The notes under the pieces are model-generated. The model ran no database searches and was not told where the DNA came from. It was given only the letters and a program-made list of their open reading frames with translations. A stretch of DNA of 64,000 bases. Origin: Pseudomonas resinovorans NBRC 106553 (lineage in GTDB: Bacteria; Pseudomonadota; Gammaproteobacteria; Pseudomonadales; Pseudomonadaceae). Positions 7,105 through 18,306 of the stretch are shown in pieces (within the stretch, counting starts at the first letter, position 1; the number at the start of each line of letters is the position of its first letter). Both the position numbers and the translations under genes were made by a program. The stretch is from the NCBI RefSeq assembly GCF_000412695.1, contig NC_021499.1, positions 5,704,001 to 5,768,000 of the forward strand, in the 5' to 3' direction.

Positions 7105-7556
7105 AACGGATGACCACCACACTCGAAACCCTCGACAGCATTTCCCCCGCCGACCGCCAGCGCCTGGTGGAGGTCTGGGAGGCCGCCGTGCGCGCCACCC
7201 ATCACTTCCTCAGCGAGGACGACATCCAGTTCTTCCGCCCCCTGGTGCGCGACGCCTACCTGGATTCGGTACGACTGGCCTGCCTGCGCGATGCCGAAGG
7301 CCGGATCGCCGGCTTCATCGGCACCGGTGGCGACAGCGTGGAAATGCTCTTCGTCGATCCGGCGCAGCATGGCCGTGGCATCGGCCGCGCGCTGCTGCGG
7401 CACGCCCTGGAACGGGGTGCGCGAAAGGTCGATGTGAACGAGCAGAATCCCCAGGCGCTGGGCTTCTACCAGCACCTGGGGTTCGTCCAGTACGCCCGCT
7501 CGGAGCTGGACGGTTCGGGCAAACCCTTCCCCATCCTGCATCTGCACAGGCCCTGA
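7101..7556 (+). CDS. GNAT-family N-acetyltransferase
   Basis: The protein of up to 151 residues has GNAT core features: IAGFIGTGGDSVEMLFVDPAQHGRGIGRALL contains the acetyl-CoA pyrophosphate loop (HGRGIGRALL), followed by DVNEQNPQALGFYQHLGF, typical of the C-terminal strand and helix. The closest general type is a YjaB/YafP-like small acetyltransferase; the acceptor is unknown. The start may be GTG 7101, overlapping the upstream stop, or ATG 7110. It is convergent with the mechanosensitive channel gene. Confidence 0.85.
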   Translation: MKRMTTTLETLDSISPADRQRLVEVWEAAVRATHHFLSEDDIQFFRPLVRDAYLDSVRLACLRDAEGRIAGFIGTGGDSVEMLFVDPAQHGRGIGRALLRHALERGARKVDVNEQNPQALGFYQHLGFVQYARSELDGSGKPFPILHLHRP

Positions 7557-7576
7557 CCTTGAAGGCGGCTCCGAAG

Positions 7577-7605
7577 GTGGACCGCTGACGCCCGATCCAC
7601 CCTAC
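7577..7605 (-). repeat. REP-like hairpin (GTAGG-GTGGAT class)
   Basis: On the minus strand this reads GTAGG, stem GTGGAT, loop, stem GTCCAC. It belongs to the GTAGG-N-TGG series found also at 8726, 59542, 62613, 62665 and 62777. Confidence 0.65.
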
Positions 7606-7631
7606 CCTGCTCACCGGTCCCCTCACCCCAA

Positions 7632-7652
7632 CCCTCTCCCGGAGGGAGAGGG
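7632..7652. terminator. Intergenic hairpin between convergent genes
   Basis: CCCTCTCCC-GGA-GGGAGAGGG forms a perfect 9-bp stem with a 3-nt loop. There is no T-run, so it may be a repeat or a weak terminator. It separates the acetyltransferase and mscS genes. Confidence 0.5.
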
Positions 7653-7669
7653 AGCGGATTGCGTTCGGC

Positions 7670-8518
7670 CTAACCCTGGGGCTGCTGCACGATGATGGTC
7701 TGCGCCGGCATGGGTGCAGGGAAGTCGGTCCCCAGGGCGTCCTTGATGGTGCGGTTGGTGTCGAAGTACACCTGCCAGTAGTTGTCGTTGTGGCAGAAAG
7801 GCCGCACCGCCAGCACCGGACCCACCAGGTTGAACTCGAGGATTTCCACGTCCACCGGCGGCTCGCTGAGCACATTGGGGATGGCCGCGATACGCTCCTT
7901 GAGCACGGCCGCGGCGGCGTGCCAGTCGGCGGCGCCGGAGAGCTGGGCCTTCAGCTCCACACGACGGAAATCGTTGTGGCTGAAGTTCTGGATGGTGTCA
8001 CTGAAGATCTTGTTGTTGCCCACCAGGGTCATCACGTTGTCCGGCGTGTTGATGGCGGTGGCGAACAGGCCGATCTCCTTCACGGTGCCGACGACGCCGC
8101 CGGCACTGATGAAATCGCCCACCTTGAACGGCCGCAGGACGATGATGAAGCCGCCCGCCGCCAGGTTGGCCAGCAGACCCGACCAGGCCATGCCGATGGC
8201 CAGGCCGACCGCCGCGATCAGCGCCGCCAAACTGGTGGTCTGGATACCGAAGAAGCCCAGGATGCCCACCACCAGGAGGATGTTCAGGGTCACGGTGATG
8301 AAGGAGCCGACATAGCGCAGCACCGTGGGATCGACCCGCTGTCGCTCCAGGGAACGCTGGACCAGGCGTACCGCGAAGGTGATCAACCAGCGGCCCACCA
8401 CCCAGAAGGCGATGGCCGCGAGAATCTTGACGCCGAAGGTGGTGGCGTACTGCGTGACGGTGGTCATGAACGCGCTGACCTTCTCGGTACCCACGTTGAC
8501 GATCGTTGTTTCATCCAT
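7670..8518 (-). CDS. mscS: Small-conductance mechanosensitive channel (MscS family)
   Basis: The 282-residue protein is the length of E. coli MscS. Three N-terminal membrane helices are visible; the pore-lining TM3 is rich in Gly/Ala (LAALIAAVGLAIGMAWSGLLANLAAGGFIIVLRPF). The beta domain follows with KVGDFISAGGVVGTVKEIGLFAT and NNKIFSDTIQNFSHNDFRRVEL. MscS channels open under membrane tension during osmotic downshock. No other gene appears coupled to it. The upstream 250 nt hold REP-like palindromes. Confidence 0.93.
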   Translation of the reverse strand: MDETTIVNVGTEKVSAFMTTVTQYATTFGVKILAAIAFWVVGRWLITFAVRLVQRSLERQRVDPTVLRYVGSFITVTLNILLVVGILGFFGIQTTSLAALIAAVGLAIGMAWSGLLANLAAGGFIIVLRPFKVGDFISAGGVVGTVKEIGLFATAINTPDNVMTLVGNNKIFSDTIQNFSHNDFRRVELKAQLSGAADWHAAAAVLKERIAAIPNVLSEPPVDVEILEFNLVGPVLAVRPFCHNDNYWQVYFDTNRTIKDALGTDFPAPMPAQTIIVQQPQG

Positions 8519-8607
8519 GGCGAAGCACCTTGCAGGAAAGAAGTGGCTTCGAAAAAGCTAGCACGGTGTCGGTAAAGTGCCCGTCCGGGGCGCAATGTGC
8601 TCTGCGT

Positions 8608-8701
8608 GGATGGGTCGGTCGGCGTTCCGGGAACTCGCGGTTCCCATCGACCGCCACTGATGGGTATCGCTCCGCTCAGCGGAACGCCGCCCGACCCATC
8701 C
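8608..8701. repeat. Long inverted repeat containing REP-like hairpins (GTAGG-ATGGGT class)
   Basis: Arms at 8608-8629 and 8680-8701 are inverted copies of 22 nt with one mismatch. The right arm merges with a hairpin (8660-8704, minus strand GTAGG-ATGGGT ... ACCCAT) of the same series as 59542-59573. Confidence 0.75.
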
Positions 8702-8725
8702 TACGAGCTGGCACAGACGCGTTCC

Positions 8726-8755
8726 GTAGGTTGGGCAGAGGAACGAAGCCCAACG
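8726..8755 (+). repeat. REP-like hairpin (GTAGG-TTGGGC class)
   Basis: GTAGG, stem TTGGGC, loop, stem GCCCAA, CG. The last stem pair is C/G here and T/A in the copy at 62665-62696, a compensatory change. Confidence 0.7.
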
Positions 8756-8768
8756 AACCAGCAGAACC

Positions 8769-9704
8769 TCAGACCGCCAGTTCCCAGAGCGGCATCACGG
8801 TGACGCGCACGTCCGGATCGTGGCTGCCGCCGCCGAGGATCACCCCGCGCAGGGGCGAGACATCGGAGAAATCGCGGCCCCAGGCCAGGGTGATGTGTTC
8901 CAGATTGGGCAGGATGTTGTTGGTGGGGTCGAAGTCCACCCAGCCGTTGCGCGGGCAGTAGACCGACACCCAGGCGTGGGAGGCGTCGGCGCCGATCAGG
9001 CGCGGCTGGCCGGGTGGCGGCTGGGTCAGCAGGTAGCCGCTGACGTAGCGCACCGCCAGCCCACGGGAGCGCAGGCAGGCCAGCATCAGGTGGGCGAAGT
9101 CCTGGCAGACGCCACGGCGGCGTTCCAGCACCTCGGTGAGCGGTGTCGCCACCTGGGTCGCTTCGGCATCGAAGGCGAACTCGCTGAAGATCTTCTCCAT
9201 CAACGCCGCAGCCCCTTGCAGCAACGGCCGTCCGGCCGGGAAGCAGGCGGCCCCGAACTCGCTGAACTGGCGCTTGATCCGCACATAGGGCGACTCCACC
9301 CGGTAGCGGCAGGCTTCCAGCTCGATGGGCGACAGCGCCCGGCCGCTGAAGGCCAGGCTGGCGGCTACCTGCTCCCAGGCCGGCGAGGCGGCCAGGTCCA
9401 GCGGGCCGTGGGGCAGCACCTCGACTTGCAGGCGGGCGCTGACCCGCAGCTCGTCGTGGGGGCGCTCGAAGGCCAGGCGGGTCAGGGGGTTGCCGAACAC
9501 GTCCACGAGGTCCTGGCGCAGGGTGGGCTCGGGCTCGATCAGCAGTTGCTGGCCATTGCACAGTTGCCAGGGGCACTCCCGTGGCCAGAGGTGCACCAGC
9601 TGCTGGGACAGGGACACCGGCGCCGAATAGCGGTAGTGGGTGTCGTGGAACACCTGGTAACGGGCGCCCTGCACGGGGGCGATGGATTGGGCTTGCGCGT
9701 GCAT
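8769..9704 (-). CDS. Transglutaminase-like cysteine protease-fold protein
   Basis: The 311-residue protein has an N-terminal beta domain (RYQVFHDTHYRYSAPVSLSQ, seen in bacterial transglutaminase-like proteins) and a catalytic domain with the Cys in RRGVCQDFAHLMLACLRSRG, the His in GADASHAWVSVYCP and the Asp in GWVDFDPTNN. Such proteins are predicted peptidases or amide-bond transferases. The ATG at 9704 overlaps the stop of the upstream ATP-grasp gene by one base (TGATG), so the two are translationally coupled. This is the last gene of the three-gene operon. Substrate unknown. Confidence 0.88.
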   Translation of the reverse strand: MHAQAQSIAPVQGARYQVFHDTHYRYSAPVSLSQQLVHLWPRECPWQLCNGQQLLIEPEPTLRQDLVDVFGNPLTRLAFERPHDELRVSARLQVEVLPHGPLDLAASPAWEQVAASLAFSGRALSPIELEACRYRVESPYVRIKRQFSEFGAACFPAGRPLLQGAAALMEKIFSEFAFDAEATQVATPLTEVLERRRGVCQDFAHLMLACLRSRGLAVRYVSGYLLTQPPPGQPRLIGADASHAWVSVYCPRNGWVDFDPTNNILPNLEHITLAWGRDFSDVSPLRGVILGGGSHDPDVRVTVMPLWELAV

Positions 9705-12202
9705 CAGGTGGATACCGTTTGCTGGCTGACGTCGTCGACGTGGGCAAAATAGCGCAATCCGAGGCGATCGGAGACCAGTCCGACGTTCAGTGCGATTTCC
9801 CGCAGCAGCCCGGCCAGCCCGGCGAGCACCTCGTCCAGGCTTTCGTTGCCGAACAGGGGGTTTTCCAGCGTGCCCAGGTCGAAGGCCAGCAGGCGGCCGA
9901 TCAGGCCACTCAGCACCAGCTCCTGGGGCGCGCCGAAGTCCTGGTGCAGGCGGCCCAGGGAGCGCTCCAGGGCCTGCAGCTGGAAGCGCAGGGAGTGGGG
10001 GTTCTGCTCGTGCAGCAGGAGCAGGTCGAGCACCGGGATCAATTGGGGCGAGGCCAGGTAGCGCGAGCGGTAGGTGATGGTGCTGTTGCCCAGTTCCAGC
10101 AGCCACTCCAGGGCCACCGGGTCCCAGGCGGCGCCCCCTTCGAGGAAGCCGGCGATGGCCTCGGCGTAGAACTGCACCCGCTCGATGCGCCGGCCGATCA
10201 TCAGGAAGCGCCAGCCGTCGTCGCGGGTCATGTCGTCCAGGGCGAAGCCGGACAGCGCGGCCAGGGACATCAGCAGGCGGTTGAGGAATTCCAGGGCCTC
10301 GCCCAGGTCGGTGCGTGTCGGGTCCAGGGCCTGCGCATCACGGTGTAGCTCCAGCACCGCGTGCCAGTTCTCCCGCGACAGCCGGCCGCGCACCTGGGCC
10401 GCCGTCCAATGCAGGCGGCGCAGGTTGGCGCTGATGCTGCTCGGCCACTCGTCGTCCAGCAGGGCCGCCAGCAGGCGCTGCTCCAGGGGCTCGGCGCCGC
10501 GCGGCACCAGGCCCACGGCCTGGGCCAGCTGCAGGGCCGTCTGCAGCGCCTGTTCGTCGCCATCGGCGTCCACGTAGCGCGACAGCACCACCCGCAGCAG
10601 GCGCGCGCCGTCGTCGCAGCGTTCCCCATAGCGGCCGAACCAGTAGAGGTTCTCCACCACCCGCGACGGCAGGTAGGGGTCCTGGCGGATCAGCTCGCGC
10701 ACGCCAAGGGTGCGCGGGCGCAGCGGCTCGCCCACCACCGGCAGGTCGGCCAGGACCCAGGTGTCCTTGCTGGCGCCACCGCGCTGCATGGACACCACTT
10801 CCGCGTCGGCCGCCGACGCCACCCGCGTGAGGCCGCCGGGCATCACCCAGTAGCTGCCGTCGCTGCCGGCCACGGCGAAGACGCGCATGCCGATGGCCCG
10901 CGATTGCAGCTCGCCGACCTCGCCATCGCCCTGCCAGACCGGCGCCAGGGACAGCCGCGCCATGCGCTGGGCCACATAGACATGGGGATGGGCCAGCAGG
11001 CGCTTGCGCAGGGCCAGCAGGGCGCCGTCTTCCAGGGCATGGCCGAACAGCGGTTCGAAGCTCTGGCTGGGGAAGGCCGGCTTGATCACCAGCCCGGCCA
11101 GGTCCTCCCGGGACTTGCCCAGCAACTGCCCCTGGCTGCACCAGGACGTCTCCAGGGTGGGCAGCAGCAGGTCTTCACCCAGCAGGCGCCGGCCGACCTC
11201 GGGCAGGAAGCCCAGCAGCCCCGGCGACTCCAGCACGCCGCTGCCCAGGGCGTTGGCCACCAGCACCCGGCCCCGGCGCACGGCGTCCAGCAGGCCGGGC
11301 ACGCCCAGGGCCGAGTCGGTGCGCAGTTCCAGGGGGTCGCAGTAGTCGTCGTCGAGGCGCCGCAGCACCGCGTGGACACGCTTCAGGCCACCCAGGGTCT
11401 TGAGGTAGAGGGTGGCATCGCGCACCGTCAAGTCATGACCCTCCACCAGGGGGAAGCCGAGCTGGCGGGCGAGGTAGAGGTGCTCGAAATAGGTTTCGTT
11501 GAAGCGCCCCGGCGTGAGCAGCACCACCAGGGGCGTCTCGCCGTCGCTGGGGGCCTGGCGGATCAGGGTTTCCTGCAGGGTGCGGAAGTAGCCGGCCAGG
11601 TACTGCACCCGCAGGTCGCGATAGAGCTCCGGCAAGGCGCGGGAAACGATCTGCCGGTTCTCCAGGGCATAGCCGGCGCCCGAAGGCGCCTGGGTACGGT
11701 CGGCGAGCACGTGCCAGCGGCCATCGAGGTCGCGGGCCAGGTCCACCGCGTAGCTGTGCAGGTAGATGCCGCCGGGCGGCCGCACGCCCTGGCAGGGCCA
11801 GAGGAAGTTGGGATGGCCGTAGACCAGCTCGCTGGGCAGCAGCCCCTCGGCGAGCAGTTGCTGCTCGCCATAGAGGTCGGCCAGCACGGCATTGAGCAGC
11901 CGCGCGCGCTGGGCAACCCCGGCCGCGATGGGCTGCCATTCCTCGGCCGAGAGCAGGTTGGGCAGCAGGTCGAGCTCCCAGGGGCGATCGGTGCCCTTGG
12001 GGTCGGCGTAGACGTTGTAGGTAACGCCGTTTTCCTGGATCTGCCGCACCAGCAGTTCCTGGCGCTGGCGCATCTGCGCCGGGCTGCTGCGCTCCAACCG
12101 TTTGAACAGGCGCCGCCAGTGGGGGCGTACCTGGCCATCGGCGTCCAGCAACTCGTGGTAGGCCGTGGAGGTCAGGGGATAGTTGGCTAGCAGCTCGGGC
12201 AT
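9704..12202 (-). CDS. Circularly permuted ATP-grasp / alpha-E domain fusion
   Basis: This 832-residue fusion has an N-terminal circularly permuted ATP-grasp domain (about 1-480) with YGHPNFLWPCQGVRPPGGIY, NALGSGVLESPGLLGFLPEV, LAGLVIKPAFPSQSFEPLFG and the SWVMPGG-like SYWVMPGGLTRVA. A helical alpha-E domain follows (about 520-830), beginning PSRVVENLYWFGRYGERCDDGARLLR. Published comparative genomics predicts that such proteins, found with transglutaminases, are amidoligases making peptide-type metabolites. No product is known. The gene is preceded by the DUF2126 gene after 89 nt and coupled to the transglutaminase downstream. Often the two domains are separate proteins; here they are fused. 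Confidence 0.88.
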   Translation of the reverse strand: MPELLANYPLTSTAYHELLDADGQVRPHWRRLFKRLERSSPAQMRQRQELLVRQIQENGVTYNVYADPKGTDRPWELDLLPNLLSAEEWQPIAAGVAQRARLLNAVLADLYGEQQLLAEGLLPSELVYGHPNFLWPCQGVRPPGGIYLHSYAVDLARDLDGRWHVLADRTQAPSGAGYALENRQIVSRALPELYRDLRVQYLAGYFRTLQETLIRQAPSDGETPLVVLLTPGRFNETYFEHLYLARQLGFPLVEGHDLTVRDATLYLKTLGGLKRVHAVLRRLDDDYCDPLELRTDSALGVPGLLDAVRRGRVLVANALGSGVLESPGLLGFLPEVGRRLLGEDLLLPTLETSWCSQGQLLGKSREDLAGLVIKPAFPSQSFEPLFGHALEDGALLALRKRLLAHPHVYVAQRMARLSLAPVWQGDGEVGELQSRAIGMRVFAVAGSDGSYWVMPGGLTRVASAADAEVVSMQRGGASKDTWVLADLPVVGEPLRPRTLGVRELIRQDPYLPSRVVENLYWFGRYGERCDDGARLLRVVLSRYVDADGDEQALQTALQLAQAVGLVPRGAEPLEQRLLAALLDDEWPSSISANLRRLHWTAAQVRGRLSRENWHAVLELHRDAQALDPTRTDLGEALEFLNRLLMSLAALSGFALDDMTRDDGWRFLMIGRRIERVQFYAEAIAGFLEGGAAWDPVALEWLLELGNSTITYRSRYLASPQLIPVLDLLLLHEQNPHSLRFQLQALERSLGRLHQDFGAPQELVLSGLIGRLLAFDLGTLENPLFGNESLDEVLAGLAGLLREIALNVGLVSDRLGLRYFAHVDDVSQQTVST

Positions 12203-12291
12203 CGGTGAACTCGGCAGACAGGCAGCAGGGAAACTTTAGCGGACGACGCGGGGCCCGGACGCGATACCGCCGGCCGGGCCAACCGGGCCGC

Positions 12292-15200
12292 CTAACGGCG
12301 GCGCAGGTCCAGGGTCATGGGCAATTCGTCGTTCACCACGGGCGCGCCGACCTGCAGCTTGCCTGGTGTATGCCCGTGACGGAAGAAGCGCGCCAGGCGG
12401 CGGCTCTCGGCTTCGTAGGCGTTCACCGGGAAACTGTCGTAGCTGCGCCCGCCGGGATGGGCCACATGGTACTGGCAGCCACCCAGGGAGCGCTGCATCC
12501 AGGTGTCCACCAGGTCGAACACCAGGGGCACCTGCACGCCGATGGTGGGCTGCAGACAGGAAGCCGGCTGCCAGGCGCGGTAGCGCACCCCGGCGACGAA
12601 TTCGCCCACCCGCCCGGTGGACCGCAGCGGCACCGGTTCACCGTTGCAGGTGAGCACGTAGCGATCCGGCGTCATGCCGGCGACTTTCACCTGTACCCGC
12701 TCGAGGGACGAATCCACGTAGCGCACGGTGCTGCCGGCGGAGCCCTCCTCCCCCAGCACATGCCAGGGCTCCAGCGCCTGGCGCAGCTCCAGGTCGATGC
12801 CCTTGACCTGGTAGTCGCCGTACTTGGGGAAGCGGAACTCGAAGTGCGGCGCGAACCATTCCGCGCGCAACGGGTAACCCGCCGCGTTGAATTCATGCAC
12901 CACATCCTCGAAGTCCTGCTGGACGAAATGCGGTAGCAGGAAGCGGTCGTGCAGCTCGGTGCCCCAGCGCACCAGCTTGGGCGGGGTGTAGGGTTCGTTC
13001 CAGAAGCGCGCCACCATGCCACGCAGCAGCAACTGCTGGGCCAGGCTCATGCGCGCGTGGGGCGGCATCTCGAAGGCACGCAGTTCCAGCAGGCCGAGGC
13101 GGCCGCTGGCGCTGTCGGGCGAATAGAGCTTGTCGATGCAGAACTCGGCCCGATGGGTGTTGCCGGTGACGTCCACCAGCAGGTTGCGCAGCAGGCGGTC
13201 CACCAGCCAGGGCGGACAGTCGGCGCCGGGTTCGGGCATCTGCGCGAAGGCGATCTCCAGCTCGTAGAGGGCGTCGTTGCGCGCCTCGTCGACCCGCGGC
13301 GCCTGGGAGGTGGGCCCGATGAACAGCCCGGAGAACAGGTAGGACAGCGACGGGTGGTTGTGCCAGTAGCTGACCAGGCTGCGCAGCAGGTCCGGCCGGC
13401 GCAGGAAGGGCGAGTCGGCAGCGGTGGCGCCGCCGAGGACGAAGTGGTTGCCGCCGCCGGTCCCGACATGGCGGCCATCGACCATGAACTTCTCGCTGGA
13501 GAGCCGGCACTGCCGCGCCGCCTCGTAGAGGAATTCGGTGCGCTCCACCAGCTCCTCCCAATTGGCCGAGGGGTGGATGTTCACCTCGATCACGCCCGGG
13601 TCGGGGGTGACGCGGAAGTTGCTCAGGCGCGGGTCGCTGGGGGGCTCGTAGCCTTCCAGCAGCACCGGGCACGCCAGCTCGCCGGCGGTGGCTTCGATGG
13701 CCGCCACCAGCTCCAGGTAATCCTCCAGTTCGGCCAGGGGCGGCATGAACAGGTAGAGCCGGCCCTCGCGGGGTTCGGCGCAGAGGGCGGTGCGGGTGAT
13801 GCCGGCGGCGGACCGGTGCAGGGCCGGCTGGCGGTCTTCGCCCGGCGACCTGGCCGCACCCGCGCGCAGCTGCTGGCGAATCTGCGCGGCACGTTGCAGC
13901 GGCGGGAAGGCCTGGCTGGGGTCGGCCGGGTTCACGTAGGGGTAGTCGGCTTCGCTGGCCCAGGGCTGGGAGTCCAGCGGCAGGCGGTAGCCCATGGCGG
14001 AGTCGCCGGGCATCAGCCGGCAATGCTCGTCGCGCAGGAACCAGCGGCCGCTTTCCCAGGCGTCACCTGCTGCATTACGCGCCAGGGGCAGGATCTGCCC
14101 GACCACCTCACCCAGGCCACGCTCGAACAGCTTGCGCAGGCGCTCGCGCTCCAGCGGGTCGGCCAGGCGGGCGTCGTCCGGGGTCACGTTGACGGGCAGC
14201 TTGCGCTCGCGCCAGAGGTAGTAGAACCAGTCCTCATAGGCCGGGAACTGGTAGTCCGCCGACACGCCGAGGCGGCTGGCCACGCCGCTGAGGAAACGTG
14301 CGGCGAGCGGGGCGTCGGCGCCGTAGTTGCGGCTTTCGTCGGCGTAGAGGGCGGCGTCCTGCCAGATCGGCTCACCGTCCTTGCGCCAGAAGCAATTCAG
14401 CGACCAGCGCGGCAGTTGCTCGCCGGGGTACCACTTGCCCTGGCCGAAGTGCACCAGGCCGGCGGGCGCGTAGTGGCCGCGCAGGCGCTGGAACAGGTCG
14501 ACGGCCAGACGCCGCTTGTTGGGGCCGAGCGCGGTGGTGTTCCACTCCGGATCGTCGGGGTAGTCGATGGCGATGAAGGTGGGCTCACCGCCCATGGTCA
14601 GGCGCACATCGGCGGCGGCCAGGTCGGCGTCGATGCGGGCGCCCAGTTCACGGATGGCCTGCCACTGCTCGTCGCTGTAGGGCTTGGTCACCCGTGGCGC
14701 TTCCCAGACCCGCTCGACGCGCATGTCGTGGGAGAACTCGCACTCGGACTCATCCACCCCGCCGCTGATGGGGGCCGCCGAGGAGGGTTCCGGGCTGCAG
14801 GCCAGCGGGATGTGGCCCTCGCCGGCGAACAGGCCGGAGGTCGGGTCCAGGCCGACCCAGCCGGCGCCCGGCAGGTAGACCTCGCACCAGGCGTGCAGGT
14901 CGGTGAAGTCCACCTCGGTGCCACTGGGGCCGTCGAGGGATTTCTGGTCGGCGGTGAGCTGGATCAGGTAGCCGGAGACGAAACGCGCCGCCAGGCCCAG
15001 GTGGCGCAACAGCCGCACCAGCAGCCAGGCGGAGTCGCGGCAGGAACCGGAGCCCTTCTCCAGGCTCTGTTCCGGGCTCTGCACGCCGGGTTCCAGGCGG
15101 ATCAGGTAGCGGATGTCCCGCGACAACCGCTGGTTGAGCGCCACCAGGAAGTCCACGCTGCGCATCGGCGTGAGGTCGATGCCGGCCAGGTAATCGGCGA

Positions 15201-15579
15201 ACAGCGGGGTCGCCGGCAGGCGGCTGAGGTAGGGGGCCAGCTCGCGCTGGTCGTCGGCGGTGTAGCTGAAGGGGATCTGCTCGGCGTAGGGCTCGAGGAA
15301 GAAGTCGAAGGGGTTGAACACCGCCATCTCGGCGACCAGATCCACCTCCACCTTCATTTCCCGGGTCTTGCCCGGGAACACCAGGCGCGCCAGGTAGTTG
15401 CCCTGGGGGTCCTGCTGCCAGTTGATGAAGTGCTTGCCCGGGGTGACCTTCAGGGAGTAACCGAGGATTCGCGTGCGGCTGTGGGGAGCCGGGCGCAGAC
15501 GAATGATCTGCGGACCTAGGTTGACCTCACGATCGTAGCGATAGTGGGTGACGTGATGCAGTGCGACATGGATCGACAC
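12292..15579 (-). CDS. Transglutaminase-like / DUF2126 fusion protein
   Basis: This large protein has 1095 residues. Its N-terminus ([20 protein letters not shown]) and transglutaminase core, with the Cys in [19 protein letters not shown] and the His in [18 protein letters not shown], occupy about 1-300. The rest matches DUF2126: [35 protein letters not shown] segments and [17 protein letters not shown] at 15577-15579 is chosen because GGAGG precedes it by six bases and the conserved N-terminus begins there; the frame upstream to 15711 has no family similarity. It is the first gene of the operon with ATP-grasp/alpha-E and a second transglutaminase. Function unknown. Confidence 0.9.
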
Positions 15580-15822
15580 GGCGTGCCTCCTGCGGGCCTG
15601 GGCGATAGCGGGAGTCGCGCAAGACTTGTGCCAGCCCCCGAACCGTTGATTTCGGCCCCTCCAAGCACTGCAAAGGGGCCACCTGCGCACCCGAATCGCC
15701 CGGCCGCACAAAAATGGTTCGCGGGCCGTGGCAACGGGTGTGGTTCAAGCCTAGCGAGGGAAGATGAAGGAGAAGGGAATTCCCGGCAGATTGTTTAGGC
15801 CGATTGGGCATATGTAGCAACC

Positions 15823-15915
15823 GTGGGGGCGAATTCATTCGCCAAGCAGGCCGAAGGCCTGCCTTTTGCCGCACGGGGCAGCTTCCCTGCCCTTGGCGAA
15901 TGAATTCGCCCCTAC
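15823..15915. repeat. REPIN: two inverted REP units (GTAGGGGCG variant)
   Basis: Arms 15823-15846 and 15892-15915 are inverted 24-nt copies with one mismatch (GTGGGGGCGAAT... and, inverted, GTAGGGGCGAAT...). Each arm contains a GCGAAT-TC-ATTCGC hairpin. It lies in the 362-nt gap between the DUF2126 gene and the cytochrome gene; the rest of that gap should hold the DUF2126 operon promoter, but I could not assign one. Confidence 0.88.
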
Positions 15916-15941: not shown

Positions 15942-17051
15942 TCAGCAACCGCCGGGGAGGCTGGCGATCCAGCGGGTCAGCAGTTCCAGGCCCTCGCGGT
16001 GGGCGGTGGAGCGGCCGAGCTCAGGCATCATCACGCTGGGGTCGGTGCTTTGCACCCGGTAGACCAGCACCGAGGCGTCGGGCTGGCCGGGATGGATGTC
16101 CACCAGGCGGTCGCCGGAGCCCTTGCCGGCGGCCACCGGCTGCTTGCACAGGCCATAGGGGATGCCCAGCGCGGTGGCCGGGTCGAGGTAGAGGCCGGAG
16201 GTGCGCGCCGGGCCCTTGGGGTTGTGGCAGTGCGCGCAGTTGATGTCGAGGTAGCTGCGCGCCTGCTGCTCCAGGCTTTCCCCGGCGCGGGGTGCGCCGG
16301 CCAGGGCATTGCGTGGCAGTCCTTCGGGCGCCGGCAGGCCCTGCAATAGGCCCAGGCGTTGCCAGTGCTGCAGCTGGTTCTCCACACCGTCGGCATAGGC
16401 CAGGTCGCGGTTCAAGTGGCGGGCCTTGGGCCCCAGTGGCTTGAGGCCCTCGCCGTGGCGTTCCTCGTGGCAACCGGCGCACTGGTTGGCGTCGGGCACC
16501 TGGTAGTCCACCGCCAGGCTGTCGCCCCGCTCGTCATGCAGGGTCAACGCCGCGCTGGCGCCCGCCCACTCCAGGGTGGCTTCCTGCTGGGCCTCGTCCC
16601 ACACATAGGGCAGCGCCACCCAGCCCTGCCGCTGGCGCAGCAGCACGCGGGTCTCCACCAGGCGTACCCGTTCGAGATCCAGGCCCCGGGCCGGGTCGCG
16701 GTCGTCCCGGGTGTTTTTCAGCAAACGGCCCTGAGCATCCTTGGGGTAATAGAAGGTCTTGGTGAGCACGGTGCCGACGGGAAAGTCGAAGTCCTTCTCG
16801 GCATAGCGGGCGCTCTCCCCCGGCGGCAGCCAGAGGGTGCGCAGCTTGTGGGCGTAGTCGCTGTACAGCGGGGTGTTGAGGTCGTAGGCCTGGGCCGTGG
16901 CGGCCGGCTGCAAGTGGCCGTCGGCGCGCTGCAGCATGCCCCAGCCGCTGAGTGTTTCCGGGTAGGCCTCGCCGTCGGGCAGGTAGAGCGGCTCCACTGG
17001 CCGGTCGCAGCCGGCCAGCAGCAGGAGCATCAGGCACAGCGCGCCCCTCAT
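15942..17051 (-). CDS. Di-haem c-type cytochrome lipoprotein (TIGR03806/HNE_0200-like)
   Basis: This 369-residue protein has a lipoprotein signal (MRGALCLMLLLLAGC). Two haem c motifs are visible: CAGCHEERH near residue 190 and CAHCHNPKG near residue 270. A distal Met occurs in PSVMMPELG. It resembles the family regularly encoded beside a beta-helix protein, for which no function is established. Its start overlaps the stop of the beta-helix gene (ATGA), so the two are translated together. Likely location is the periplasmic face of a membrane, where it could pass electrons. The substrate is not inferable from sequence. Confidence 0.82.
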   Translation of the reverse strand: MRGALCLMLLLLAGCDRPVEPLYLPDGEAYPETLSGWGMLQRADGHLQPAATAQAYDLNTPLYSDYAHKLRTLWLPPGESARYAEKDFDFPVGTVLTKTFYYPKDAQGRLLKNTRDDRDPARGLDLERVRLVETRVLLRQRQGWVALPYVWDEAQQEATLEWAGASAALTLHDERGDSLAVDYQVPDANQCAGCHEERHGEGLKPLGPKARHLNRDLAYADGVENQLQHWQRLGLLQGLPAPEGLPRNALAGAPRAGESLEQQARSYLDINCAHCHNPKGPARTSGLYLDPATALGIPYGLCKQPVAAGKGSGDRLVDIHPGQPDASVLVYRVQSTDPSVMMPELGRSTAHREGLELLTRWIASLPGGC

Positions 17052-18283
17052 GAGCCCTTCTGCTCCCCGGCGCTGGCCAGCACCACTTCGGGCAGCGGCG
17101 GCAGTGTGCAGCGGTGGGCGCTCATGTCGGTACTGATGTTCTTGAAGTTGTTCGGCCCATCGACGTTGACCAGGGTGGCCGCGCCGTTGTCGACGCAGAT
17201 GCCCATCGCCGCCGGCAGTTTGCCGTCCACCAGCTTCGCCGGGTTCACGTAGCCGTCCCAGAGGATGTCCGGCAGGCGGCCGTTGAGACCGAACTTGGCG
17301 ATCCGCAGGGCCTTCAGCTCGATATGGTCGGGGCTGTCGCCGCCTGGGCCGAAGCGGTTGCCGTGGATGGCGATGCGCTCGGGATAGGGGTCGAAGTCCG
17401 CGCTGGTGGAGAGGTCGCTGTAGCCGGTGCTGAAGTAGCTGCTGACGATGACGTTGGCGGTGCGGTGGTTGCCGATGTCGTTGTCGAAAATCTCCACATC
17501 ATCGTTGGAGTTGATCACCACGCCGGAGCCGGCCGGCACGCTGGCCACCGGGGTGCCCTTGTGGCCGAAGTTGTCGTGGTTGTTGCCCTCCACCTTGTTG
17601 CGGTGGATGCGCGTGCCGTGCCCCGGCTGCTGCAGGTTGGGCATGTTGAACACCAGGATGCCGCCGGTATTGCCGGTGGCGAGGTTGTCGTAGACGTCGG
17701 CGCCGATGGTGTTCTCGATCTCGATGCCGGCGACGTTGCGCTCGGCGCGGCTGTTGCGCACTACCACGTTGCGCGACTGGCCGACGTAGATGCCGGCATC
17801 CGACGCGCCGATGGCCACCGCGCCCTCGATCAGGGTGTTTTCCGTCTGCACCGGGTAGATGCCGTAGGCGCCGTTCTCGGTGGCCGGGCCGTTGGTCCAT
17901 TCGGTGCGCACATTGCGGATCACGATGTTCTTGCCGCCCACCACCTTGAGGGCGTCGCCCTTGCTGTCTTCCAGGGCGAGGTCTTCGATGGTGAAGTCCG
18001 AGGCATCCACCAGCAGCCCTTCGGCGCCGGCCTTCTGGCCCTTGAAGCTGAGGATGGTCTTGTCCATGCCGGCGCCCTTGATGGTGACGCCGCTGACCTT
18101 GAGGCTGAGGCCACGGTCCAGGTGCCAGGTGCCGGCCGGTATCTCGATGACGCTACCGGGCTTGGCCTTGATCAGCCGGGCCTGCAGGTCCTTCTGGAAA
18201 TCGGCGTGGGCGACGGGGGTGTCGGCCTGGTCGCCGCAGCCGGCGAGCAGCATGGCGAGGGCAAGAAGGGAGAGAGGACGCAT
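17048..18283 (-). CDS. Parallel beta-helix repeat lipoprotein (TIGR03805-like)
   Basis: This 411-residue protein has a lipobox (MRPLSLLALAMLLAGC, next residue G, which favours release to the outer membrane). The body is a run of right-handed beta-helix turns: NIVIRNVRTEW, NTLIEGAVAIGASDAGIYVG, NVVVRNSRAERNVAGIEIEN and NLATGNTGGILVFNMPNLQQ. Such folds often bind or cleave polysaccharides, but no catalytic set is recognisable. It is the first gene of a pair with the di-haem lipoprotein. The ATG at 18283 is preferred over the GTG three codons earlier, since the lipoprotein signal starts there. A 24-bp palindrome lies just upstream. Confidence 0.85.
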   Translation of the reverse strand: MRPLSLLALAMLLAGCGDQADTPVAHADFQKDLQARLIKAKPGSVIEIPAGTWHLDRGLSLKVSGVTIKGAGMDKTILSFKGQKAGAEGLLVDASDFTIEDLALEDSKGDALKVVGGKNIVIRNVRTEWTNGPATENGAYGIYPVQTENTLIEGAVAIGASDAGIYVGQSRNVVVRNSRAERNVAGIEIENTIGADVYDNLATGNTGGILVFNMPNLQQPGHGTRIHRNKVEGNNHDNFGHKGTPVASVPAGSGVVINSNDDVEIFDNDIGNHRTANVIVSSYFSTGYSDLSTSADFDPYPERIAIHGNRFGPGGDSPDHIELKALRIAKFGLNGRLPDILWDGYVNPAKLVDGKLPAAMGICVDNGAATLVNVDGPNNFKNISTDMSAHRCTLPPLPEVVLASAGEQKGS

Positions 18284-18306
18284 GGCGGGCACCGGTTCTT
18301 ATCGTA

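Follow-up and report, generated by a model that had tools for sequence, protein, structure and literature searches.

Iyer et al., in 2009, reportedly predicted the protein families considered here and linked them to amide-bond synthesis and to peptidases (DUF2126/COG4196, COG2308, COG2307); a circularly permuted ATP-grasp, Alpha-E, and a transglutaminase are said to have been proposed there as a system for peptide synthesis or modification. We describe a three-gene operon of these families, hereafter A-B-C, from Pseudomonas resinovorans NBRC 106553. It occupies positions 8769-15579 of a stretch of 64,000 nucleotides that was analyzed as a whole (the window; contig NC_021499.1, positions 5,704,001 to 5,768,000). 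The middle gene encodes a fused ATP-grasp/Alpha-E protein that has probably lost its chemistry, and the operon has a promoter of the same type as a paralogous operon of this genome, which encodes the proteasome-like protein Anbu. There is also a likeness, in logic only, to pupylation, in which the ligase PafA has a glutamine-synthetase (GS) fold and works with the proteasome: the shared elements are a GS-fold ligase, a proteasome relative, and nitrogen starvation.

The 2009 work is cited in PMC5666114, PMC3597751, and PMC6376114, on excerpts of which, together with PMC12239564, the following background draws. Anbu is induced in nitrogen-limited P. putida, as cited by PMC5666114 and PMC6376114; its expression was unchanged under various further conditions, and the proteins of its operon were dispensable for growth without stress (PMC5666114, in part). 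Anbu structures have been solved, and in the available part of PMC6376114 peptidase activity of YbAnbu was not detected, and the ATP-grasp protein of the YbAnbu operon liberates phosphate from ATP. The RloABC and RimK/RimB operons of Pseudomonas resemble A-B-C in pairing an ATP-grasp with a peptidase, and Rlo also includes a transglutaminase fold, but they draw on other families, namely a RimK-related ATP-grasp, an inactive transglutaminase on seven membrane helices, and a retropepsin-like peptidase (excerpted from PMC12239564).

Architecture of the locus

The span is filled by three minus-strand genes in the order A, B, C. Gene A (12292..15579; 1095 amino acids) begins with a GTG at 15579, preceded by a GGAGG Shine-Dalgarno sequence at 15586..15590, and stops at 12292. 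Gene B (9704..12202; 832 amino acids) follows, and gene C (8769..9704; 311 amino acids), of transglutaminase fold, runs from an ATG at 9704 to a stop at 8769. The TGA of B (9706-9704) and the ATG of C (9704-9702) overlap by a single base, 9704, within a TGATG. All Pfam domains score over their curated cut-offs: Bact_transglu_N, Transglut_core, and DUF2126 in A; CP_ATPgrasp_2 (residues 81-462) and Alpha-E (511-819; 9746..10672, 233 bits) in B; and Bact_transglu_N and Transglut_core in C, for which the query bore one additional N-terminal residue. The initial annotation of the window had described this same-strand operon in the same order and with the same domains, including the overlap, the joining of a permuted ATP-grasp to Alpha-E, and intact Cys, His, and Asp in both transglutaminase-type proteins, and had linked the operon to predicted amide-bond chemistry; reading frames, Pfam, and the alignments described below agree with it on each of these points.

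A probable pseudo-ligase in gene B

The E-x-N pair of ATP-grasp enzymes is expected to bind Mg2+, as in glutathione synthetase. The alignment of ATP-grasp domains covered 120 loci and the window, and contained 104 fused and 59 unfused proteins (an earlier set had 31 and 30). Neither E nor N is kept in any fused homolog (0/104), and both are kept in 58 of the 59 rows called unfused; the remaining row, L093, is a B truncated by a contig end. The unfused proteins bear E-D-N together with a GSGGYG-type loop. At the corresponding place (residues 167-169; 11696..11704, minus strand) the window's B has A-D-R, and fused proteins mostly have A/S/G, then D or Q, then R, followed by T-Q-x-P-S/T-G. The GSGGYG/ESGGYG nucleotide loop is likewise gone from the window's B and from the fused rows shown. 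Its site comprises residues 374-388 (KPAFPSQSFEPLFGH; 11039..11083, minus strand), the loop's place in the window's B reads KPAFPSQSFEPLFG, and among the fused members shown the sequence is unconserved and variable in length. A different pattern recurs across the 104 fused proteins, with R at the N position in 90, Q171 in 89, K374 in 71, D285 in 101, and R440 in all 104. The solved structure 3n6x, of the CP_ATPgrasp_2 family, retains E-D-N and SGGYG; its 474-residue chain stops where the Alpha-E domain of B starts.

The predicted model of B (mean predicted local distance difference test, pLDDT, 87) has a good ATP-grasp fold of the glutathione-synthetase type. Because the E-x-N pair and the Gly-rich loop are missing, B is probably a pseudo-ligase, its fold intact and its chemistry lost. 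The initial annotation had held that this ATP-grasp forms an amide bond, and had named in advance the absence of nucleotide-binding residues on alignment as grounds for giving up that idea; B lacks those residues, and the proposal is not supported. In a tree of 150 ATP-grasp domains built by a quick method, 91 fused domains and L093 separate from the other 58 with a branch support of 100. The duplication is thus an old one, with the new motif maintained. The Alpha-E domain of B retains the E-R motifs E527-R528 and E674-R675, and is without four residues that are invariant in 59 unfused Alpha-E proteins (positions 598, 617, 677, and 681 of the window's protein). Since ATP-grasp and Alpha-E are fused in B, their counterparts in the live unfused pair may also be in contact, as the fusion suggests.

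A candidate ligase in gene A

The transglutaminase fold of A comprises an N-terminal region (residues 6-84) and a core (140-246) with the triad C180, H229, and D245. C retains Cys, His, and Asp at the aligned positions, and the triad is present, besides the window's own proteins, in 97/97 A and 94/94 C sequences; among other transglutaminase-fold proteins of these loci, Ser replaces Cys in 3 of 17. The remainder of A is DUF2126 (residues 276-1093; 12295..14754, minus strand; PF09899, 1352.6 bits), in which E332, E665, N667, H704, H712, R762, R810, E812, E832, R834, and E837 are invariant in two alignments (15/15 and 52/52 sequences), the GS-like residues being unchanged in all 52. Pfam itself labels the family "putative amidoligase", a ligase chemistry that the initial annotation had passed over. 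On the predicted model DUF2126 looks like a glutamine-synthetase fold and would be an amidoligase; given that resemblance, A rather than B is likely the ligase of the operon.

Companions of A-B-C across genomes

Public relatives of A were taken from one scan, of which the best 80 of 592 were used. Of these 80, 74 have a fused B within the fetched stretch; in 60 it is the next gene after A, in the same orientation. C adjoins B at no fewer than 65 of the 74 loci with B. The A-B-C association is far above chance. An unfused ATP-grasp/Alpha-E pair also falls inside the fetched stretch in 28 of the 80. Of the loci with A at the order level, 20 in all, the stretch contains B in 19 and the unfused pair in 16; in eight (L034, L035, L036, L039, L046, L048, L049, and L051) unfused ATP-grasp, unfused Alpha-E, A, B, and C follow one another on one strand. 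At L037 (G040) A stands separate, and unfused and fused-length Alpha-E genes lie together on another contig.

DUF2126 is found in 18/18 genomes of the genus, the window's own included. In a sample of 194 genomes of the order, Alpha-E occurs in 102 and DUF2126 in 56. Each of the DUF2126 genomes has at least two Alpha-E matches; the 46 that have Alpha-E but lack DUF2126 divide into 35 with one match and 11 with two. A phylum sample of 299 genomes, partly overlapping with the order sample, gave Alpha-E in 171 and DUF2126 in 92, of which 86 have at least two Alpha-E matches. Checked gene by gene in the fetched loci and from Alpha-E counts elsewhere, the usual companion of A-B-C is, on this sequence evidence, an unfused and catalytically complete ATP-grasp and Alpha-E pair, often encoded elsewhere in the genome. 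The unfused pair is the steadier companion, and the trio is not the "self-contained system" that the locus had been called. The related expectation that the three genes are gained and lost as a unit holds in that their order is widely conserved; it fails in 11 of the 194 order-sample genomes, all of them two-Alpha-E genomes lacking DUF2126, which have B and C without A, and in G244, G267, and G477 of the phylum sample, which have A and the unfused pair and in which B was looked for and none was found.

A Zn-ribbon/Peptidase_Mx metallopeptidase gene adjoins the system in 14 loci (L042, L044, L063, L064, L100, L102, L110, L119, L122, L125, L128, L135, L139, and L140), overlapping its neighbor's end by a few bases in four. 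A ComEC-like competence gene lies beside the system at L105 (7385-9880) and at seven more loci, all eight outside Pseudomonas, and is probably the shared synteny of one lineage. In the window itself, the upstream neighbors (15942-18292) encode an SO2930-family diheme cytochrome (TIGR03806) and a parallel beta-helix protein (TIGR03805), with a 4-base overlap. Between the cytochrome gene and A-B-C, at about 15824-15912, an inverted repeat with GGGGCGAATTCATTCGCC-like ends resembles a repetitive extragenic palindromic element or a terminator.

A promoter type shared with the Anbu operon

Sigma-54 promoters follow the pattern GG-N10-GC, and NtrC binds a dyad with a consensus of its own. Upstream of A, on the minus strand, a perfect sigma-54 type match (TGGCACAAGTCTTGC; 15619..15633) ends 39 nucleotides before the start codon. 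Above it lie an NtrC-like dyad (GAACCATTTTTGTGC; 15706..15720) with 2 mismatches to GCACYANNNTRGTGC and a weaker second site (GCCCCTTTGCAGTGC; 15665..15679) with 3, so that both elements are present at the motif level. The sigma-54 type site recurs at the same place in 18/18 genus genomes and in L023-L025, though not in L026. When 9 or more of the 10 bases must match and the site must lie no more than 250 nucleotides away, 47 of 100 A genes have one, compared with 29 of 1714 other reading frames; for non-overlapping gene calls the figure is 14 of 861. By context, it is found in 21/21 Pseudomonas-type loci, in 25/55 other loci without an Alpha-E gene before A, and in 1/24 loci where an Alpha-E gene precedes A; unfused ATP-grasps have a sigma-54 type site upstream in 25/60 cases. 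Of 71 sigma-54 type sites, 34 have an NtrC-like dyad (2 mismatches or fewer) in the 200 nucleotides above them, against a background of 2.9% of shuffles and of 68/1711 and 27/861 real upstream regions.

Across the window's own genome (6.48 Mb) there are 29 perfect TGGCAC-N5-TTGC sites, compared with 4 for a reversed control pattern. A-B-C and the Anbu operon account for two of the 29. The rest include sites before glnA, an allophanate hydrolase gene, flagellar genes, and a gene whose product comes closest to a branched-chain amino acid binding protein (under its cut-off); a working sigma-54 search should return such a set. The glnA dyad has 2 mismatches, equal to that of A. NtrC/sigma-54 control of A-B-C is thus predicted from motifs.

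The Anbu operon (L052; G000:C1:2459205-2463246, at 2.46 Mb) lies 3.3 Mb from A-B-C and is where the unfused pair of this genome resides. Its four genes encode, in coordinates of L052, the ATP-grasp (7166-8665), Alpha-E (8668-9618), a transglutaminase (9615-10412), and Anbu (10515-11246), and its perfect sigma-54 type site is accompanied by an NtrC-like dyad at -67 with one mismatch. The two operons are alike in their ATP-grasp, Alpha-E, and transglutaminase families and in promoter type. A-B-C differs in having DUF2126, in its fused ATP-grasp/Alpha-E without E-x-N, and in having no Anbu; an Anbu profile search of the window found no such gene. The DUF2126 gene of G244 and of G267 immediately precedes Anbu, an arrangement that a single pathway served by both operons would predict. 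At L155 (11732-16047) and L156 (9176-13736) Anbu directly follows the DUF2126 gene; the unfused ATP-grasp, Alpha-E, and transglutaminase genes there are either divergent or located elsewhere, and a fused B was not found.

Discussion

The evidence is read most economically as a single nitrogen-starvation program served by two operons, with A-B-C as an NtrC-induced accessory operon of an amide ligase/peptidase system and B as its non-catalytic partner; we put the chances of this at about even. Under nitrogen shortage, phosphorylated NtrC and sigma-54 would turn on A-B-C and, through the like promoter, the Anbu operon. The latter would provide a live ATP-grasp ligase, its Alpha-E partner, a transglutaminase-fold protein, and Anbu. 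A would add a second ligase, of GS fold, bearing its own transglutaminase-fold domain; B would scaffold or control the live ATP-grasp/Alpha-E pair, presumably in a complex with it; and C would be a further transglutaminase-fold hydrolase or transferase. The substrate may be a peptide, a protein, or a small amide.

Several observations weigh against this reading. In pull-downs, proteins of the Anbu operon showed no specific interaction with one another (PMC6376114, in part). Even with its substitutions, an ATP-grasp could retain nucleotide binding or catalyze another reaction. The Foldseek match of DUF2126 to GS is weak (E 0.019) and the model of A has a mean pLDDT of 74, so that the catalytic residues of DUF2126 were assigned by pattern. 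The two-mismatch level of the A operon's dyad is reached by 3-4% of control regions, many of the site-positive loci are from Pseudomonas and thus non-independent, and 30 of the 55 A genes that stand first in their operon outside Pseudomonas have no good site. As for distribution, DUF2126 is absent from five of eight sampled genomes of the same family (present in three), and G076 of the order sample has a truncated B with C and no second Alpha-E. Six of the 92 A genomes of the phylum sample have a single Alpha-E match: the three named above, G256 and G281, with A or a truncated B at a contig edge, and G407, with a broken DUF2126 gene (only fragments at L160, an intact unfused ATP-grasp/Alpha-E pair at L161).

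Were the trio self-contained, B's ATP-grasp would make the amide bond, and trimming or transfer of the product would fall to the two transglutaminase folds. The conserved A-B-C order, the glutathione-synthetase type fold of B, and the intact Cys-His-Asp triads fit this, but the alignment largely contradicts it, every one of the 56 order-sample genomes with A has an additional Alpha-E gene, and A and B-C are found apart; we regard it as highly improbable. It is less improbable, if still unlikely, that B is altered and not dead, an ATP-grasp with Arg169 replacing the metal or a catalyst of other chemistry, in the manner of SelO, a pseudokinase that performs another chemistry. The tidy substitution pattern favors such a role, against which stands a nucleotide loop that is neither conserved nor constant in length among the fused members shown. 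Small amines and acids are the classic substrates that GS and ATP-grasp ligases couple. The product may accordingly be a small amide or peptide metabolite, for storage or signaling, and not a tag on proteins, with the transglutaminase folds and Anbu hydrolyzing it when nitrogen is needed. The nitrogen-type promoters agree with this, as does the association of these domains with urea-metabolism domains in marine metagenomes (PMC3597751, as excerpted), but similarity clustering of 100 loci, at the level of clusters, gave no precursor or export gene common to most of them; of the alternatives this is the one we take most seriously, while leaning against it.

An ordinary housekeeping peptidase pair, with degenerate ligase domains and accidental promoter matches, would suit both the one degenerate ligase domain and the inessentiality of Anbu-operon proteins for non-stress growth (PMC5666114, in part). 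It sits poorly with the GS-like residues of A, invariant in 52/52 sequences, and with the position of two of the genome's 29 perfect sigma-54 type sites at the two paralogous operons, and we give it very little weight. A bolder form of the accessory-operon reading would be a Pup-independent tagging and recycling machine for nitrogen starvation, in which A and the live ATP-grasp mark proteins or peptides, B gates the live pair in a hetero-assembly, and the transglutaminase folds and Anbu cut the products, releasing nitrogen; we consider this rather doubtful, a little more so than an altered but working B.

Set, with caution, against the 2009 amidoligase proposal, this work appears to add a fused ATP-grasp that is probably non-catalytic, a companion rule by which the live pair is encoded elsewhere, and an NtrC/sigma-54 type promoter. 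The Anbu, Alpha-E, and ATP-grasp families have been predicted enzymes since 2009, with no demonstrated product in the literature cited here. The common promoter type suggests that nitrogen starvation is the condition under which to look; the fused pseudo-ligase marks a protein from which ligation would not be expected; and the companionship of B with a live pair indicates which proteins to co-purify.

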